Source of the DNA: an uncultured Alphaproteobacteria bacterium
Lineage (GTDB): Bacteria; Pseudomonadota; Alphaproteobacteria; Caulobacterales; Hyphomonadaceae
NCBI GenBank assembly: GCA_903831485.1
Contig: CAIKXW010000266.1
Coordinates: forward strand, 1-11,366
Reading direction: 5' to 3'
Length of the DNA stretch: 11,366 bases
Position 1 is the first letter of the stretch, and each line of letters begins with the position of its first letter. Positions 2,376-11,366 of the stretch are shown here, one piece after another. The notes beneath the pieces were generated by a model. That model made no database searches. It had not been told where the DNA came from and was given only the letters and a program-made list of their open reading frames with translations. Position numbers and translations under genes: made by a program.

Positions 2376-3287
2376 TCAGCCGCCTTGGCGCATGCTCTCG
2401 GCGACGGCCTTCGCCGCATCGGAATTCAATGCTCCCAACTCGCCAAAGCGCTTGAGGGCCAGACGCCACAGCCATTTTGCGTGGCTCAGCCTTCCTGACA
2501 CGGCTGCGTGATCCGCGGCCAGCGCGGTCAGCAGGGCCAGGTCCATCCCTGTTGCCGTGTCGCGGGCGGCGGCCAGCATCTTGTCAGCATCATCAAGCTT
2601 GCCCTCGCGGATGGCGGCCCGGATCGCAGCATGCGGGTCGTCCACCGCCGGCGCAGGCGTCGACGCGGGCGGCGGGGCCTGCTGTACGGGCACGGGCGGC
2701 GGTTCGGCCGCCCGCGGCAGCGGGGCAAGGGTCACCTGCGCCGGAAAAGGTGATGGCGGCGGGGTGCTTGCCCCATTGGCCGCCGGCTCGGCGCTAGCGA
2801 CGGGTTTGGCGGCTGGTTTTGCTGGAGCTTCCGCCGCAGGCGTTGCCGGCTTCGGCGCGACAGGCGGTACCGATAGCGAACGCGGCTTCACCGGCGCAGC
2901 GGGCTCCACGATGTCGACCGGCGGAGCCGTCACGACCGGCTGTGGCGGTTCAGGCGGCGCAAGCGGCGTGATGTCGCCCGACCGCCAGTCCCGATCGGCA
3001 GCGCGGGCGCGCTGCGAATAGTATGCGTCCGCCTCGCCAAGGGCGACTTCCTCGCGCGAGGCGCGCGCCGCCAAGGCGCGCTTCTGGTTGGCGCGCGGGT
3101 GGACAGCGCTGACAAGGAAGACAATCCCGCTGGTGACGCCGAGCGCGCCTGCCAGCAGAAACAGCGGCAGGCCCGCAGCGCCGGGCGGGAAGACATTTGC
3201 TGCTTCAGCGCGATAGGTCCAGGCCAGATAGCCACCGCCGCCGGCCAGCACGGCTCCCAGCAGGAATTGAACAACGCGCACCAACAT
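2376..3287 (-). CDS. Two-helix membrane protein with Pro/Ala-rich linker and C-terminal TPR-like segment (unknown function)
   Basis: I do not recognise this family. The predicted 303-residue protein begins with two hydrophobic helices (about 5-24 and 40-62). A charged segment rich in Arg, Ala and Glu (about 65-104) follows, then a long linker dominated by Pro and Ala (about 105-217), and a C-terminal helical region (about 218-303). That last region includes an AIREGKLDDADKMLAAA stretch that reads like one tetratricopeptide-type hairpin, possibly followed by a second. The architecture suggests a membrane-anchored scaffold with the C-terminal domain held away from the bilayer. Which side of the membrane it faces is unclear. 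The start is the ATG at 3287; a TTG immediately before it is less likely. A GGGGTGG stretch four to five bases upstream could serve as ribosome binding site. It lies upstream of the kinase gene on the same strand, so a shared signalling role is possible but is only inferred from position. Confidence 0.8.
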   Translation of the reverse strand: MLVRVVQFLLGAVLAGGGGYLAWTYRAEAANVFPPGAAGLPLFLLAGALGVTSGIVFLVSAVHPRANQKRALAARASREEVALGEADAYYSQRARAADRDWRSGDITPLAPPEPPQPVVTAPPVDIVEPAAPVKPRSLSVPPVAPKPATPAAEAPAKPAAKPVASAEPAANGASTPPPSPFPAQVTLAPLPRAAEPPPVPVQQAPPPASTPAPAVDDPHAAIRAAIREGKLDDADKMLAAARDTATGMDLALLTALAADHAAVSGRLSHAKWLWRLALKRFGELGALNSDAAKAVAESMRQGG

Positions 3288-3544
3288 CAAGCCACCCCAG
3301 TCAGCCCGCTCTGCGGCGGTCCGGCAGGGGAAGGCTTAGCTGCTTCGCGGCCACACCGGAACCGCAAACACGCAGCAGGCTAGCCGTTTCGCAGCGCCTC
3401 CTGCATGACGGCGCTCACCACCTCCACGCCACGATTGCGAAGGGCTCCTGCCAGTTGCGAATCGACGCTCGGCGAGCGGCAAAGTCATCCTCCGAGCCAA
3501 AAAAGGCCAGCAGAAACGAACCAAGAAAATGGACAAGGGGAGAG
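3288..3544. other. Gene-free stretch upstream of the membrane-protein gene; possible minus-strand gene remnant
   Basis: No intact gene is visible here. It must hold the promoter of the minus-strand membrane-protein gene, but I cannot point to convincing -35 and -10 boxes. One minus-strand frame between about 3470 and its TAG at 3380-3382 reads for roughly 30 codons as a plausible helical protein C-terminus (ending MQEALRNG). It has no start codon with a ribosome binding site, and a stop lies just upstream, so it would be at most a remnant. Bases 3497-3537 are noticeably richer in A than the surroundings, as expected of non-coding or rearranged DNA. Confidence 0.4.
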
Positions 3545-3751
3545 GCCGACATGCCGCCATTGCTGGCCGGCCGGATGACCGCAGCGTGGGCCAACTTCGC
3601 GCGCAATGGCGACCCGAATGGCGGCAAGACCATCATCTGGCCGAAACACGACTCCGCGACGCGCCCTACGATGTTGTGGGACGAAAGCCCCGCCGGCCCG
3701 CGCTTCGAGAACGATATGCGCGAAGAATAGCGCAAGCGCATGCTGGGCTAG
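3545..3751 (+). pseudogene. C-terminal remnant of a type-B carboxylesterase (para-nitrobenzyl esterase family)
   Basis: From the ATG at 3551 this frame reads MPPLLAGRMTAAWANFARNG, then DPNGG, a WPKHD segment, ATRPTMLWDE and a final ENDMREE. This is the typical end of type-B carboxylesterases (AWxxFARxGxPN, WPxYD, ATRxTMxxD, VENDP/MR), which are normally about 500 residues long. Only about 65 residues remain. The Ser-nucleophile region, oxyanion loop and catalytic His are absent, so no activity is possible. A TAG at 3728-3730 cuts the tail early. Beyond it the same frame continues RKRMLG to a TAG at 3749-3751, which fits the usual family ending, so the first TAG looks like a later nonsense mutation. 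Upstream of about 3545 the similarity stops abruptly, suggesting a deletion or recombination end. Identification is from motif memory, not a search. Confidence 0.7.
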
Positions 3752-3903: not shown

Positions 3904-4962
3904 ATGTCGGTTTCGCTGAAATCGTTGCTGTTGGCGTGCGCCGTTAGTGTCTCTGCGGCGCCGGCCGTTGCCCAGAGCGAGCCCGCCACGAAGCGGCCGG
4001 ACCTGGAGGGCGTGTGGTCCAACCAGTCGCTTACGAATCTGTCGCGCCAGCCCGGCACAAAGCTTTCGGTGACGGAGCAGGAGGCGAAGGAGCTGATCGA
4101 GAACAATCCGTGGATCCTGCTCGCGGCCAGCGAAGAAGGTGCCTCGGATTTCGGCGACGGGCTGCTCGATGATGGCAACAGCGATCGCGGCTACAACACG
4201 TTCTGGATCGATCCCGGCCAGTCACTCGCCAAGGTGAAGGGCGAGATCCGCACATCCTGGCTGGTCGAGCCTGCCGATGGCCGCGTGCCGGTCTCACCCA
4301 CGGGTCAGAAGGCGCGCACAGACGCAGCGGCCAAGAAACGCGCCACAATGTATGAAGGGCCCGAGACATTACCCATCGCCGAACGCTGCCTGGTCGGCTT
4401 CACGAATGCTGGCGGTCCTGGTATGCTGAACACGATTTACAACAACAATTACCAGATCGTCCAAGCGCCCGATCATGTGATGATCCTGGTCGAGATGGTG
4501 CATGATGCGCGCATAATCCCGATCGCCAGGAACAAGGCTGAGGCCAAGCACAGGCCCGCCGCGATCCAGCCATGGCTTGGCGATTCCGTAGGCTGGTATG
4601 AGGGCGACACGCTGGTGGTCGACACCCGCAACGTCCACCCCGAGCAGGCGCGGCAGGGGCAGGTGATCCTGTCGCCCGAAGGCAAGCTGACCGAGCGGTT
4701 CAGCCGCGCGAATGATGGCCAGTTGTTCTACACATTCGAGATCGATGATCCGGTGTACTACACGCAGCCATGGCGCGCCGAGATGGTGATGAACAAGCGC
4801 GACGATAGTATCTACGAATACGCCTGCCATGAAGGCAACTACGCCATGGAAGGCATCCTCAGCGGCGCGCGGCTCTATGAAGCCAAGGGGCTCGAGAACA
4901 AGCAGGGTCCCGGCATTTTCGGCCCCACCGCGCCGCCGCCAAAGCCAAGGAACAAGCAATAG
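3904..4962 (+). CDS. Exported protein of the uncharacterised 'PDLxGVW' family
   Basis: A 352-residue secreted protein. Residues 1-23 form a classical signal peptide with a likely cleavage at AVA|Q (23/24). The mature protein starts with the PDLEGVWSN motif (32-40). It also has NNNYQIVQAPDHVMILVEMV (180-199), HDARIIP (200-206), WLGDSVGWYEGDTLVVDTRN (224-243), and YEYACHEGNYAMEGILSGAR (304-323). I recognise these blocks from a widespread, functionally unassigned family found in sphingomonads, Acidobacteria and others, often in catabolic gene neighbourhoods. No catalytic mechanism is established to my knowledge. The conserved Trp, His and Asp residues suggest a beta-rich ligand-binding or hydrolytic fold, which is inference. 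Only two cysteines remain in the mature chain (162 and 308). The tail from 335 is Pro/Lys-rich. It is the first gene of the operon, two bases before the esterase gene, so the two are probably co-translated and act together outside the cytoplasm. Confidence 0.88.
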   Translation: MSVSLKSLLLACAVSVSAAPAVAQSEPATKRPDLEGVWSNQSLTNLSRQPGTKLSVTEQEAKELIENNPWILLAASEEGASDFGDGLLDDGNSDRGYNTFWIDPGQSLAKVKGEIRTSWLVEPADGRVPVSPTGQKARTDAAAKKRATMYEGPETLPIAERCLVGFTNAGGPGMLNTIYNNNYQIVQAPDHVMILVEMVHDARIIPIARNKAEAKHRPAAIQPWLGDSVGWYEGDTLVVDTRNVHPEQARQGQVILSPEGKLTERFSRANDGQLFYTFEIDDPVYYTQPWRAEMVMNKRDDSIYEYACHEGNYAMEGILSGARLYEAKGLENKQGPGIFGPTAPPPKPRNKQ

Positions 4963-6054: not shown

Positions 6055-6768
6055 ATGGCGGATGCGAAGAACGTCCTTGTCACGGAGCTGACGGGCTTTG
6101 CCAACCCCGTCATCGCCCGGCGGCTCGCCGCTGCGGGCGCGCGCGTGATCGGCTGTGACCCATCCATAGGTGCCGATGGTGAGCATGACAGCGTCGAGGT
6201 GGTCGGCTGGGCCAGGCCCGCCGATGTCGTGGCGCAAGCGACAGAGCGGTTCGGCGGCAGGCTCGATGCGATCGTCATCTCCTCGGCGATGCCGGCGCCG
6301 CGCATCCGCGTGGAGGATCTCTCCGAAGAAAACCTGATGCCGTACTTCCAACGACTCGCGGCAGAGTCGCTGCTTTTCGCAGGCGCTGCTGTGAAGGCTA
6401 TGCGGCCCAACAAGTCAGGCCGCATCGTGTTCGGATCCTCGTCGGGGCCGATCGGCGGCATACCAGGCTTTGCGGCCTACGCGTCGTCGCGGGCTGCAAT
6501 CAATGGCGTGGTGCGCACGCTGGCGCTTGAAGTGGCGGGCGACGGCATTTCCGTGAATGCGGTCGCGGCCAACTTCATCCAGACGGAGACGTACTATCCG
6601 AAGGCGCTGCTGGAAGATCCGGTGAAGGGTCCGAAGCTGCTCGCACGCGTGCCGATGGGGCGGCTGGGCGAGGCGGAGGAAGTGGCCGCGCTGGTCGAAC
6701 TGCTGGCGCTTGGCCAGAGCGGCTTTGTGTCGGGGCAGGTGATCCCGATCTCCGGCGCATGGTGCTGA
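6055..6768 (+). CDS. SDR-fold protein with a halohydrin-dehalogenase-type active site
   Basis: A 237-residue cytoplasmic protein of short-chain dehydrogenase fold and length. The cofactor motif TGxxxGxG is gone: at T10-E-L-T-G-F15-A-N17 all three glycines are replaced and a Phe sits where the second would be. Halohydrin dehalogenases carry T-x4-F/Y-x-G there; here the last Gly is Asn. The SDR NNAG motif reads SSAM (76-79). The catalytic set is Ser129-x12-Tyr142-x3-Arg146, with Arg replacing the SDR Lys, which is the dehalogenase signature (HheC Ser132, Tyr145, Arg149). Asn173-Phe174 match the Asn-Tyr of the HheC halide site. The family turns vicinal haloalcohols into epoxides, releasing halide without NAD(P), and can catalyse the reverse with small anions. 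The gene starts 13 bases after the esterase stop, with AGGCGGA upstream. A diverged SDR with another role is the alternative; the gene name hhe would be premature. Confidence 0.75.
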   Translation: MADAKNVLVTELTGFANPVIARRLAAAGARVIGCDPSIGADGEHDSVEVVGWARPADVVAQATERFGGRLDAIVISSAMPAPRIRVEDLSEENLMPYFQRLAAESLLFAGAAVKAMRPNKSGRIVFGSSSGPIGGIPGFAAYASSRAAINGVVRTLALEVAGDGISVNAVAANFIQTETYYPKALLEDPVKGPKLLARVPMGRLGEAEEVAALVELLALGQSGFVSGQVIPISGAWC

Positions 6769-6774
6769 GCGCGC

Positions 6775-7395
6775 CTACTTAGAGAATTGCTGCGAGGTGA
6801 AGGCGAGAATGCGCCGCGCAGCTTCCTCGCGCTGGTCGAGCGTGTCGCCGAACGCCTCGCCGAGCTTGCCTTCCAGCATCAGCGTCGCAAGGCCGTGGGC
6901 CGCCGACCATGCAGCGATGACGGGTACGAGATCGGGGCTTGTCTTGTCGCTGGCTGTTGAAGCGTTTGCGCCGGCGCCGAGCGTGTCTGCTACGAGCTGG
7001 AAGCAGCGGTCGGCCTTGGCCTTCGCATCGGGATAGCGCGTGAGGTCGCACATCTCGGCCCGGAACATCAGGCGGAAGACTTCGGGGTTGTTCAGCGCGA
7101 AGCGGATATAGGCCTCACCGAGTGCGCGGTTTTTCTCGGCACGCTCCTTGCGCGCGAGGCCCACGGCACTGACCATGTAGTCGTAAAGGCGGTCAAATCC
7201 ATCGCCCGCAAGTTCGGCAAGAATCGCCTCGCGGTCGGTAAAGTAGTGATACGGCGCTTGGTGGCTTACGCCTGCGCGCCGCGCGACTTCGCGCATGGAG
7301 AGAGCGCCGAGGCCGCCTTCATTCATCAACGACAGGCTGGCCTGCAGGATGCCCGCCCTGACATCATCGCGAGAAATCGACTTGGTAACGGTCAT
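6775..7395 (-). CDS. TetR-family transcriptional repressor of the divergent RND pump
   Basis: A 206-residue TetR regulator. The N-terminal helix-turn-helix spans about residues 33-53 (SMREVARRAGVSHQAPYHYF), which is the family's DNA-recognition signature. The C-terminal ligand/dimer domain has FALNNPEVFRLMF at 99-111 and W163-S-A-A-H167-G168, resembling the WHG-type TetR C-terminal domain. The ATG at 7395 gives the usual length and starts shortly before the DNA-binding domain. The open frame runs on to 7638, but that extension would overlap the start of the pump gene at 7475. A weak GGGA precedes the ATG. The gene is divergent from the membrane-fusion gene with 79 bases between starts, and an inverted repeat in the gap is its probable operator. 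This layout predicts repression of both the pump and itself, relieved by a pump substrate. Its stop is only 6 bases from the convergent dehalogenase-like gene. Confidence 0.92.
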   Translation of the reverse strand: MTVTKSISRDDVRAGILQASLSLMNEGGLGALSMREVARRAGVSHQAPYHYFTDREAILAELAGDGFDRLYDYMVSAVGLARKERAEKNRALGEAYIRFALNNPEVFRLMFRAEMCDLTRYPDAKAKADRCFQLVADTLGAGANASTASDKTSPDLVPVIAAWSAAHGLATLMLEGKLGEAFGDTLDQREEAARRILAFTSQQFSK

Positions 7396-7474: not shown

Positions 7475-8503
7475 ATGCCAGCGGCGCTGTCAGCTTCGAC
7501 TCGACTGGCTATGGCTGCCGGTTGCGCTTTTCTTGTGGCTGCCTGCAGTGGCGAAGCTGCGGTTGCGACACAGAAGCCGGCAGCTGCAATTGCTGTCGAG
7601 GTTCTCAATATTTCGGCGTCAGGGGCGGGCGGGGACATTCGCGCCAGCGGGCTGGTTGCCTACAAGCGTGAGACCGCGCTGGGTTTCGGGGCGCCGGGCG
7701 AGATCGAATCGATACTGGCCGATGTCGGCGACCGGGTTGCGGCCGGGCAGGTGCTGGCCACGATGCGCCGGACCACAACCGGCGCCGACGCAAGCGAGGC
7801 TGCGCTGGCGCGGCTCACGGCGGAGCAGAATTTCGAACGCGTCACGCGGCTGCATGCTGCTGGGGCCGCGTCCCAGGCGGAACTCGATAATGCGAAGCTG
7901 GCGCTGGAACGCGCGCGCGAACGCGTGTCGATCGTCGCGCCTGCGGGCGGCATTGTTCTCCAGCGTGACGCCGAACCCGGCCAGAACGTCGCCGCGGGAC
8001 AGCGCGTCTTGTCGATCGGCGAGTCGCGCACGGGCATCATCGTCGAAGCATCGATGACGGCATCCGAAGTCTCCCAGCTTCGCGTGGGCGATGTGGCGTC
8101 AGTCAATATTCGCGAGCGCGCGGCGCTGGCGGGTCGGGTGGCGCGGATTGCGCCGAAGGGTACGCAGTCCGGACTTTTCACGGTCGAAGTGCAAGTTGAC
8201 CAGCCGGCCGGCCTGCGCTCGGGCGAGGTTGCCGAAGTCGTCATCGCCGGTCGGGCCGATGCGCAGGAGATCGCAGCCGTGCACGTCGTGCCGGCGATCT
8301 CGCTGATCGATGCGCGTGCCGACCAGGGCGTTGTGTTCGTGGTTGACGCCGAAGGCAAGGCGCGCCGCCGCGCCATCGAAACCGGCGGTGTCAGTGACCG
8401 GGGCGTGACAATCCTCAAGGGGCTAAGCGATGGCGACCGGGTGATCACCCGCGGCGCCTCGATGGTGCGAGACGGCGACGCTGTTTCCGTAGCAGCTCAG
8501 TAA
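7475..8503 (+). CDS. RND efflux periplasmic adaptor (membrane-fusion) lipoprotein
   Basis: A 342-residue adaptor that links the inner-membrane RND permease to an outer-membrane channel. The signal sequence ends in lipobox LVAAC with Cys24, so it should be anchored by lipid in the periplasm. Two lipoyl half-motifs flank an alpha-hairpin: about 70-98 (GAPGEIESILADVGDRVAAG) and 152-182 (IVAPAGGIVLQRDAEPGQNV). The hairpin (about 105-150) is short, and its LHAAGAASQAELDNA turn is typical of the family. A beta-barrel region (about 185-260) and a membrane-proximal region (about 265-340, ending in the usual GDRVITRG and DGDAV motifs) follow. Catalysis is not expected. It is the first gene of the pump operon, transcribed away from tetR, with the stop 21 bases before the permease start. 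The substrate cannot be predicted from sequence. Confidence 0.93.
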   Translation: MPAALSASTRLAMAAGCAFLVAACSGEAAVATQKPAAAIAVEVLNISASGAGGDIRASGLVAYKRETALGFGAPGEIESILADVGDRVAAGQVLATMRRTTTGADASEAALARLTAEQNFERVTRLHAAGAASQAELDNAKLALERARERVSIVAPAGGIVLQRDAEPGQNVAAGQRVLSIGESRTGIIVEASMTASEVSQLRVGDVASVNIRERAALAGRVARIAPKGTQSGLFTVEVQVDQPAGLRSGEVAEVVIAGRADAQEIAAVHVVPAISLIDARADQGVVFVVDAEGKARRRAIETGGVSDRGVTILKGLSDGDRVITRGASMVRDGDAVSVAAQ

Positions 8504-8524
8504 CACGACAAGGGGGAGGGGCGG

Positions 8525-11366
8525 ATGAAGGCCTTCACACGCTTCTTCGTCGATCGCTGGCAGTTCACGCTGATCCTGTTCTTCATGCTTTTCGGGCTGG
8601 GCATCCAGTCCGTGATGGCGATCCCGAAATCAGAAGACCCGATCGTGTCGTTTCCCGGCGTCGGCGTTTTCGTCGTCCTGCCGGGCGCGGATGCAGAGCA
8701 GATGGAGCGTGTGGTCGCAATCCCGATCGAGACGGCGCTCAACGGCCTTGAGGATGTCGATGAAATCCAGTCGACCAGCCAGGCAGGGCTGGCCTCGATC
8801 GGCGTGTCCTTTATCTACGGATCTGACCCCGAGAAGAAGTATGACGAGGTCGTGCGCGAACTGAACGTCATCCGCGCAAGCCTGCCGGAAGGCATCACGC
8901 TGCTGCGCGCGAACCGTCAGAATCCGGCGCAGACCAACATCGTGCAGATGGCGCTGGTCAGCGAGACGGCCTCCTACCGCCGCATGGAAGCCTATGCGCG
9001 CGAATTGCGCGACGCGGTCGAGCGCGCCAACGGCGTGCAACAGGCAGAAATCTGGGGCGTGCCGGCGTCCGAAGTGCGCATCACGCCGGACATGGACAAG
9101 CTGGCGAACTTCCGCCTGCCGCTGACGGCCCTGACCGAGGCAGTGCAGCGCGAAGGCGCCGACATTCCCATCGGCGCGGTCGAGAGCAGCGGGCGGCGTT
9201 TCAATGTCGAGGCGACAGGGCCATTCGACAGCCTTGATGAAATCCGCGACATCGTGCTGCGCTCGGACGGCGGATCGGCGATCACGCTGGGCGACGTGGC
9301 GCAGGTCGAGTGGACCAATGACGAACAGGCGGTTCGCACGCGCTTCAATGGCCAACGTGCGCTATTCGTGACGGCGCGAGCCAAGCTCGGCGCAACCATC
9401 TTCGACGTGATGTCGAACGTGCGGTTCCAGGTCGACAAGTTCGCGCCGCGCCTTCCGCCCGAGATCAAGCTCGAACGCGGCTTCGACCAATCCGAGACGG
9501 TGGCCTACCGGTTGTCATCGCTGGGGCGCGATTTCGCGATCGCGATTGCGCTTGTCCTGCTGACCCTCCTGCCGCTCGGCTTCCGGGCCTCGCTGGTCGT
9601 GATGGTGTCGATCCCGGCCTCGTTCGCGATCGGTGTGATCGCGCTCGACCTGATGGGGTACTCGCTGAACCAGCTGTCGATCGCCGGCTTCGTGCTGGCG
9701 CTTGGCCTGCTGGTGGATGACTCCATCGTCGTCACCGAGAATATCTCGCGTCACCTGCGCTCGGGCCTGAGTCCGCGTGATGCCGCCATTGCGGGCGTCG
9801 ATGAGATCAACGTCGCCGTGCTGGGCTGTACGGCGACGCTGCTGTTCGCCTTTGTGCCGCTGCTGAACCTGCCGGAAGCGGCGGGCGATTTCACGCGATC
9901 ACTGCCGATGGCCGTGGTCTGCACGATCGCGGCGTCGCTGTTCGTGGCGCTGACGGTGATCCCTTTCCTCGCCAGCCGGATGCTGCCGCGCAACAGCCAC
10001 TCCAACGTCTTTCTCGATGTGGTCATGGGCGCCATCCATGCGATCTATCGCCCGATCCTCAAGGTCGCGCTCGGAATGCCGCGATTGACCGTGGTCGCGG
10101 GACTTGCTCTGTTTGCGGCGTCCCTGACGCTCGTGCCGCGCCTCGGTTTCAGCCTGTTCCCCGAGAACGACAGCCCGTACTTCATGGTCGAGGTTGAACT
10201 GCCGCAGGGTGTCTCGGTCGAGGAGACCGACAAGGCGGTGATGTTCGCCGACAGTGTTCTCGCGAAGCATGACGAGTTCACCTGGCGCTTCGCCAACTCC
10301 GGCCGCGGCAATCCGCAGGTCTACTACAACGAGATCCCGAGCGAGCAGGCGAGCAATGTGGGCGGCATCTATGCCCGCTTCGACAAGTGGGAGTCGAAGG
10401 AAGGCAACGCGCTGCTGGAAGAGTTGCGCGCCGAACTTGCGACCTATCCCGGCGTACGCTTCAACGTGAAGCGCTTCCTCAACGGCCCTCCGATCGAGGC
10501 GCCCATCGCCATCCGCATCCAGGGTGCGGACATCGAGGTGCTCTCCGGCATCGCAGCTGATGTCGAACGCGCCATGGCGGGGGCCGAGGGCATCCGCAAC
10601 ATCACCAACCCGCTGGCCGAGCGCCTGCTCGACCTCGACCTCAATATCAACACCGAGGCGGCGGCCCTGCGCGGCGTTCCGGCCGGCGCCATGGATCAGA
10701 CGCTGCGGATCGCCATCGGCGGCGCACGGGTCGCCTCCTTCCGCGATCCGGTAGGAGACGCCTATCCCGTCATCGTTCGCGCGCCGCGCGCGGATCGGAT
10801 GAGCATTGCGGACCTCGATCGGCTCTACATCTGGACGGGCGATGGTTCGGCCGCGCCGCTGTCGGAGTTCGCCGAACCGGGCATTTCGTCCGGCCCCGCG
10901 CGCATCAGCCGGTTCCAGCGTGAGCGGACGGTGACGATTACGGCGTTCACGCAGCCTGGCTATCTCACCAATGTCGTGACGGCGAATGTCGAAGAGCGGC
11001 TGGCGGGCATTACACTGCCGGCGGGCTATTCGTGGAATGTCGGCGGCGAAGCAGAAGCGCAGTCGCGCAGCTTTGGCGGCATGGGTCCGGCGATCCTGAT
11101 CGCGCTGTTTGGCGTGATGGCCGTCCTGCTGCTCGAGTTCGGATCGTTCGCGACGGCGGGCGTAGTGGCGTTCGTGATCCCCTTCGGAATCATGGGCGGG
11201 CTGGTCGCGCTCTACCTTGGGGGACAGTCGCTGTCCTACACCTCGATCATCGGGTTCATTGCGCTCATCGGTATCGAGATCAAGAACTCGATCCTGCTGG
11301 TGGAGTTCGCCAACCAGGAACGCGAGCGAGGGACACCCCTGCGTGAAGCCATCGAGAAGGCGGGCG
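8525..11366 (+). CDS. RND-family efflux permease, HAE1-like (3' end beyond window)
   Basis: The inner-membrane proton-driven pump of the tripartite system; 947 codons are present and no stop is reached. Full-length relatives are about 1020-1050 residues, so the end of TM10 onward, including TM11 and TM12, is missing here. TM1 is at about 14-31, followed by the first large periplasmic porter loop. TM2-TM6 lie between about 335 and 486, TM7 at 522-540, the second periplasmic loop at about 541-850, and TM8-TM10 from 855. The proton-relay acids Asp398/Asp399 in TM4 (GLLVDDSIVV) and Lys920 in TM10 (GIEIKNSILL) match AcrB Asp407/Asp408 and Lys940, so it should be active. The ATG follows AAGGGGGAGGGG, a good ribosome site. 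The N-terminal PKSEDPIVSFPG is typical of drug-type rather than metal-type RND pumps, but this is only suggestive. An outer-membrane channel gene is not in the window. Confidence 0.95.
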   Translation, partial: MKAFTRFFVDRWQFTLILFFMLFGLGIQSVMAIPKSEDPIVSFPGVGVFVVLPGADAEQMERVVAIPIETALNGLEDVDEIQSTSQAGLASIGVSFIYGSDPEKKYDEVVRELNVIRASLPEGITLLRANRQNPAQTNIVQMALVSETASYRRMEAYARELRDAVERANGVQQAEIWGVPASEVRITPDMDKLANFRLPLTALTEAVQREGADIPIGAVESSGRRFNVEATGPFDSLDEIRDIVLRSDGGSAITLGDVAQVEWTNDEQAVRTRFNGQRALFVTARAKLGATIFDVMSNVRFQVDKFAPRLPPEIKLERGFDQSETVAYRLSSLGRDFAIAIALVLLTLLPLGFRASLVVMVSIPASFAIGVIALDLMGYSLNQLSIAGFVLALGLLVDDSIVVTENISRHLRSGLSPRDAAIAGVDEINVAVLGCTATLLFAFVPLLNLPEAAGDFTRSLPMAVVCTIAASLFVALTVIPFLASRMLPRNSHSNVFLDVVMGAIHAIYRPILKVALGMPRLTVVAGLALFAASLTLVPRLGFSLFPENDSPYFMVEVELPQGVSVEETDKAVMFADSVLAKHDEFTWRFANSGRGNPQVYYNEIPSEQASNVGGIYARFDKWESKEGNALLEELRAELATYPGVRFNVKRFLNGPPIEAPIAIRIQGADIEVLSGIAADVERAMAGAEGIRNITNPLAERLLDLDLNINTEAAALRGVPAGAMDQTLRIAIGGARVASFRDPVGDAYPVIVRAPRADRMSIADLDRLYIWTGDGSAAPLSEFAEPGISSGPARISRFQRERTVTITAFTQPGYLTNVVTANVEERLAGITLPAGYSWNVGGEAEAQSRSFGGMGPAILIALFGVMAVLLLEFGSFATAGVVAFVIPFGIMGGLVALYLGGQSLSYTSIIGFIALIGIEIKNSILLVEFANQERERGTPLREAIEKAG

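Follow-up and report, generated by a model that had tools for sequence, protein, structure and literature searches.

The gene described here lies on an 11,366-nucleotide stretch of DNA (the window, contig CAIKXW010000266.1) from an uncultured alphaproteobacterium of the family Hyphomonadaceae, and its product is a protein of the short-chain dehydrogenase/reductase (SDR) fold that groups with the halohydrin dehalogenases (HHDHs). HHDHs interconvert halides and epoxides without a cofactor. Judged by its sequence, the window protein belongs to the HHDH lineage and most likely works like one; we do not file it as a canonical one, because the first of the two motifs of the family fails in it. We also consider it reasonably probable that it is a cofactor-free enzyme of HHDH type acting on an acyl or acyl-coenzyme A (acyl-CoA) halohydrin or epoxide. 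The gene and the segments discussed below are the following.

6055..6768, + strand: HHDH-lineage, putatively cofactor-less protein of SDR fold, 237 amino acids (open reading frame; Pfam adh_short_C2, E 1.7e-28)
6082..6108, + strand: altered motif 1, T10-E-L-T-G14-F15-A16-N17-P18, where HHDHs have T-x4-F/Y-x-G (from alignment)
6280..6303, + strand: S76-S77-A78-M79-P80-A81-P82-R83, with R83 aligned to F86 of HheC (from alignment)
6439..6492, + strand: motif 2, S129-x12-Y142-x3-R146 (present in 163/163 rows of the query clade)
6571..6600, + strand: nucleophile-loop segment N173-FIQTETYY-P182, whose residue 181 is absent from the SDR controls (from alignment)

HHDHs are defined by motif 1, T-x4-F/Y-x-G, together with motif 2, S-x12-Y-x3-R, in the consulted sections of two reports (PMC4989007, PMC11976700). 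The window protein carries motif 2, and its motif 1 has T10 and F15 followed by an asparagine at position 17; none of the 163 rows of its clade passes motif 1. The classical SDR signatures (TGxxxGxG, NNAG, YxxxK) are replaced by E11/F15/N17, SSAM and R146, the cofactor glycine positions 11, 15 and 17 thus reading E, F and N. A preliminary description of this DNA had pointed out the complete S129/Y142/R146 triad, the replacement of all three cofactor glycines with Phe15 among the new residues, the change of NNAG to SSAM (S76-S77-A78-M79), the pair N173-F174, and Asn17 instead of Gly at the last position of motif 1. All of these residues were recovered in the translated frame, and Asn17 turned out to be a rule of the whole clade rather than a quirk of one copy. 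Identity between HHDH subtypes is about 30% according to the part of PMC4989007 consulted, and the window protein stays below this value with the one or two chains of each subtype compared (A 27%, B 26%, C 24%, D 28-29%, and G 27% for AbHheG in a Foldseek alignment; sequences of E and F were outside the comparison).

Relatives were collected in two protein searches, which scored about 8000 candidates each and gave 731 and 2574 matches. The 120 best matches of either search were retained and together made 189 distinct proteins; these and the locus sequences were then sorted by identity to the window protein. The query clade comprises 163 rows including the window protein (159 distinct, 62-100% identity). 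Position 17 is N in 160 rows, S in 2 and T in 1 (156, 2 and 1 among the distinct rows). S129, Y142, R146, F15, N173, Y181 and P182 are invariant in all 163 rows, as is G14, while A16 is found in 162. Position 10 is T in 149 rows, A in 13 and C in 1, position 83 is R in 152 and K in 11, and position 11 was E or D in the 131 clade rows examined. The dN/dS ratios of the window gene against nine relatives ranged between 0.05 and 0.19, values that are approximate as they come from simple counting with dS of 0.87-1.78. One close match per genome was detected in 10/10 relatives, mostly metagenome assemblies and possibly incomplete; in 7 of these 10 genomes there was a next match at E 1e-15 or better (E 5.8e-19 to 7.9e-16). 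Among 299 genomes drawn from the order of one relative, 4 carry the gene at E 1e-40, and three of these were represented among the collected loci before.

Two further sets of proteins surround this clade. The sister set (n = 38, of the type of L010 and P0121-P0161) shows 40-56% identity to the window protein; its position 17 is G in 29 proteins and A in 9 (P0141, P0142, P0145, P0146, P0148, P0152 and three others), G never occurs at position 14 and A never at 16. The third set consists of 23 HHDH-like proteins (31-39% identity) from genomes of the class of one relative, G010, and was read from 23 of the 37 matches of that class other than L010. All 23 have G at position 17, and 20 strictly satisfy motif 1; the other three (L092, L095, L102) read T-x4-W-x-G, with W at query position 15, and their motif 2 is intact. 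HHDH-like genes are not rare in that class, as 36/385 drawn genomes match P0130 at E 1e-35. Motif 2 is present throughout (clade 163/163, sister set 38/38, third set 23/23, solved HHDHs 6/6), and R or K occupies position 83 in 38/38 proteins of the sister set and 21/23 of the third. A single change from Gly at position 17 on the branch leading to the query clade would be the simplest history, because the surrounding groups carry Gly.

The locus search also yielded 70 weaker loci (L011-L080), whose frames served as SDR controls; all but that of L056 were usable, which left 69. In these 69 controls, G stands at position 11 in 66, at 15 in 68 and at 17 in all. K occupies position 146 in 66 of them; the remaining 3 carry R there, with Ser where the Tyr would be. 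All 69 also lack the nucleophile-loop residue that stands at position 181 of the window protein. The window protein differs from the usual SDR state at positions 11, 15, 17, 146 and 181. The departures at 15, 146 and 181 are common to it and to the solved HHDHs, but the latter keep Gly17 in 6/6 cases.

Profile searches recognize the general fold: Pfam assigns the window protein to the SDRs, and the 25 listed of its 179 NCBIfam matches all fall below their cut-offs. Among solved structures, the closest sequence match is 6a41, annotated as a dehalogenase (E 6.1e-37), followed by 8xxb and 7b73 (HheD8 and HheD2 by their entry titles) and then by FabG enzymes intermixed with more HHDHs. The predicted structure (mean pLDDT 91.5) likewise suggests HHDHs as the best fold match, by a small margin over others. 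Entry 6a41 ("Dehalogenation enzyme") resembles the window protein in its 35% identity, the S-x12-Y-x3-R motif, a loop of equal length, a K at the position of R83 and the top rank as fold match, but it has its own T-x4-F-x-G and falls outside the query clade; no relevant paper on it was found among the open PMC matches listed. HheC and HheA are more distant (24% and 27% identity), their motif 1 ends in Gly, and HheC has Phe86 where the window protein has Arg83. HheD and HheB (7b73, 8xxb, 4zd6) share the triad, and the two HheD chains have an N-F-V loop ending in T-Y-F-P, but these proteins show 26-29% identity and form a separate, well-supported branch. The sister set has in common with the window protein the triad (38/38) and the loop N-(F/Y)-I-(Q/A/E/R)-T-E-x-Y-(Y/F)-P, and differs in the G or A at position 17 and in position 14, which is never G; no characterised member of this set turned up in the searches made. 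FabG-type SDRs share the Rossmann fold and the Ser and Tyr positions, but have the glycine motif, NNAG and Lys that the window protein lacks, and lack loop residue 181, which the latter has.

Phylogenetic analyses support this position. The trees, of the kind proposed in the preliminary description, drew on 30 of the 189 listed proteins and on 17 to 25 of the 69 SDR frames, and no SDR row has an intact YxxxR. In the first tree (62 rows, 7 solved HHDHs, covering types A, B, C, D and G with one or two chains each), 20 SDR rows split off at 100/97 from the solved HHDHs and the query family, which is sister to 6a41, HheC and HheA2 at 88/84. A second tree (66 rows) was built on an alignment stripped of motif 1, the nucleophile loop, the NNAG stretch and the catalytic positions; AbHheG was omitted, and five SDRs were added, including the three Arg-bearing ones. 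The 25 SDR rows stand apart at 96/85, and the query family groups with 6a41, HheC and HheA2 at 98/97. The third tree (69 rows) gained 16 HHDH-like rows and one clade row relative to the first, and omitted nine of its rows (six of the query family and three SDRs) as well as AbHheG, a very long branch. There, 17 SDR rows stand apart at 100/100, the query clade is recovered at 100/98 and the Gly/Ala sister set at 100/96, and the two are joined at 100/99; support for where this joint family belongs within the A/C-like proteins is low (64-73). The query family thus falls with the HHDHs and apart from all SDR controls. Of the two origins envisaged previously, a divergent HHDH subtype is supported by the three trees, and an SDR relative that reached the same site is disfavoured by them on this sampling of SDRs.

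How such a protein could work may be outlined by analogy with HheC, whose mechanism we presume to map onto Tyr142, Arg146 and Ser129. Tyr142 would serve as the proton relay, its pKa lowered by Arg146, and Ser129 would hold the substrate oxygen. The vicinal leaving group or nucleophile would occupy the place of the nicotinamide in SDRs, between the T10-P18 and N173-P182 loops, and the enzyme would interconvert a beta-substituted alcohol and an epoxide. The sequence T-x3-G-F-A-N, with Gly just before the Phe and Asn after it, may represent a compensated, clade-specific rebuild of the anion pocket; Gly14 and Ala16, which changed together and flank Phe15 in the alignment, may compensate for Asn17. 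The Arg or Lys that replaces Phe86 of HheC, a residue named as an earlier engineering target in the title of a structure entry, could provide a handle for an acidic substrate. Because of the acyl-CoA gene neighbourhood described below, the natural substrate is suggested to be an acyl or acyl-CoA halohydrin or epoxide.

Experimental data on motif 1 make the asparagine unexpected. According to the sections on this motif in PMC11976700, each of its three residues was exchanged for the others in HheC and HheG. At the Thr and Gly positions, detectable activity remained only with Ser and Ala, respectively, and even the Ala cost much of it. For these two enzymes the glycine is described there as "quite invariable", and the threonine is the sole place for which natural variation is mentioned (PMC11976700). 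The Ala of nine sister sequences fits this laboratory tolerance, but the Asn of 160 clade rows does not. The complete picture, namely an HHDH lineage with an anion pocket rebuilt around Asn, located in an acyl-CoA catabolic cluster and acting on an acidic or CoA-bound halohydrin or epoxide or with a non-halide leaving group, is proposed here as a tentative one.

The other genes of the window were assigned as follows.

25-2307, - strand: hybrid histidine kinase with PAS, HisKA, HATPase and receiver domains (profile matches)
3904..4962, + strand: protein of 352 amino acids with a signal-peptide-like start (by eye) and no Pfam or NCBIfam match; homologues in L001, L009 and L125
4965..6041, + strand: esterase-like protein, resembling polyhydroxybutyrate depolymerases (NCBIfam e_dPHAscl_type1, E 1.5e-11, below cut-off)
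6775..7395, - strand: TetR-family regulator, convergent with the HHDH-like gene (Pfam TetR_N and TetR_C_33; open reading frame to 7638, likely start placed by eye from L002)
7475..8503, + strand: RND efflux adaptor subunit (TIGR01730, 135.6 bits against a cut-off of 94.9)
8525..11365, + strand: RND efflux pump, cut by the window end (PF00873, E 1.1e-184)

Eleven loci with flanks were compared (L001-L010 and L125), of which L010 is of the Gly type and L004 and L007 end at most 300 bp downstream; eight clade loci have enough flank (L001, L002, L003, L005, L006, L008, L009, L125). Neighbour queries were taken from L008, L001, L006 and the window, so that source loci match themselves, and families were named by Pfam and NCBIfam. 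An acyl-CoA dehydrogenase gene occurs in all 8 clade loci, an APH kinase gene with DUF6285 in 7, a TetR gene in 7, the RND pair in 6, KAS III in 5 and a downstream acyl-CoA ligase in 4, some flanks ending earlier. The dehydrogenase is of one type in seven loci (80-100% identity) and of another in L006 (29% to that type), where it is the next gene, 34 bp past the HHDH-like gene. In L001, the RND pump is followed by acyl-CoA dehydrogenase, APH kinase, KAS III and acyl-CoA ligase genes, and in L008 and L009 an acyl-CoA ligase gene stops 61 bp short of the aligned start of the HHDH-like gene (1 bp if the first in-frame ATG is taken instead). The 70 SDR control loci gave an acyl-CoA dehydrogenase in 4, an APH kinase in 2, RND in 2 and TetR in 0, none at 50% identity or more; 25 of these loci are shorter than 16 kb. 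As the controls come from many phyla and are unmatched, and the eight clade loci are mutually related, the link with acyl-CoA genes is suggestive and not a statistic.

Among 19 Gly-type loci, an acyl-CoA dehydrogenase was detected in 3 (L109, L123, L128) and APH kinase, RND and TetR in none; in the twentieth, L010, a dehydrogenase match (67%) lies at a distance of about 9 kb. A comparison of the 19 loci and a scan of 20 nearby genes for a common context revealed only alpha-amylase-family genes near 4, besides the acyl-CoA dehydrogenase in 3. Some individual loci also deserve mention. In L128 (6685-8717, + strand), an acyl-CoA dehydrogenase gene shares its last 4 bases with the Gly-type HHDH-like gene, taken at its longest frame, which adds a separate case of an acyl-CoA link; in L010 (7851-11521), the gene lies between threonyl-tRNA synthetase-like and IF-3-like genes (by eye); and L123 contains two HHDH-like matches in tandem (7998-8723 and 8750-9463, - strand).

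The genes of the 352-amino-acid protein, the esterase-like protein and the HHDH-like protein are consecutive on the + strand of the window, with gaps of 2 and 13 bp. The operon with an esterase noted earlier thus holds locally, but as a clue to the natural role it was dropped, since the esterase occurs in only 1/11 related loci (L001) and the 352-amino-acid protein in 3/11 (L001, L009, L125). A 4-hydroxyacyl-CoA pathway (ACAD10/11, LvaA/LvaC), brought to mind by the acyl-CoA dehydrogenase and APH-family kinase neighbours, was not adopted: among solved chains the dehydrogenase is closest to caffeyl-CoA reductase and to general acyl-CoA dehydrogenases, ACAD11 ranking 34th of 49, and the kinase matches ACAD11 at E 8e-10 only. 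Also, a homologue of the histidine kinase lies upstream of the HHDH-like gene and in the same orientation in L002, L003, L004, L005 and L007. A frame at 3197-3730 (+ strand) resembles the end of a type-B carboxylesterase that has decayed: its C-terminal part (residues 123-166) aligns with no more than positions 457-501 of the 515 in the carboxylesterase family (E 1.5e-4, below cut-off).

Three other explanations have to be weighed against an HHDH-type enzyme. An HHDH-derived protein could have kept the S-Y-R site and shifted to another non-redox reaction, for instance epoxide isomerisation, a hydration, or the elimination of some group other than halide from a hydroxyacyl-CoA; Asn17 would then reflect a loss of halide binding. 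This would agree with the constancy of Gly17 elsewhere (69/69 SDR controls, 23/23 wider HHDH-like proteins, 6/6 solved HHDHs), with the changes at 14 and 16 alongside it, with the consulted sections of PMC11976700, where Ala was the only exchange of this glycine that left detectable activity in HheC and HheG, and with an APH-kinase neighbourhood found only in the clade (7/8 clade loci against 0/20 Gly-type loci). However, the nucleophile loop is invariant, including the residues aligned to Asn176 and Tyr187 of HheC, and the acyl-CoA dehydrogenase context is not unique to the clade, being present in 4/20 Gly-type loci. Moreover, we know of no such shifted reaction in any S-Y-R protein of SDR fold. 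We regard this shift as possible but rather unlikely.

A catalytically dead or regulatory paralogue that retained the fold, for instance as a partner subunit, might explain why a residue thought essential, the motif-1 Gly, was replaced. Yet S, Y and R are invariant, the dN/dS ratios are low (0.05-0.19), and with one close match per genome in 10/10 possibly incomplete assemblies no active sister copy was seen, which makes this reading improbable. We give still less credit to convergence, in which a common NAD(P)-dependent SDR with YxxxR would have arrived at an HHDH-like site. The Pfam and NCBIfam assignments and the FabG structures ranking just behind the first HHDHs speak for this reading, but F15 is present in 163/163 rows, Gly is never seen at position 17 of the clade, position 11 is E or D in 131 rows, and loop residue 181 is common to HHDHs and missing in 69/69 SDRs. 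Convergence is also disfavoured by the trees with and without the motif columns, the window protein still grouping with the HHDHs when these are removed.

HHDHs are used industrially, and new ones have come from database screens for motifs 1 and 2. Such mining would miss the query clade, because none of its 163 rows passes motif 1. No HHDH clade with Asn in motif 1 was found in the titles and abstract openings of the open PMC matches listed, and no HHDH in Hyphomonadaceae or Caulobacterales is named among them. With Asn, Ser or Thr at this position in the clade and Ala in part of the sister set, the requirement for the motif-1 Gly can be tested directly in natural proteins. The part of PMC4989007 consulted left the natural function of HHDHs open, with only two of the then-known HHDH genes in an operon with an epoxide hydrolase. 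The acyl-CoA neighbourhood of the clade offers a lead on this function. If an Asn-rebuilt pocket in an acyl-CoA cluster is indeed what these genes encode, the HHDH family would have a native metabolic role beyond the degradation of man-made haloalcohols.
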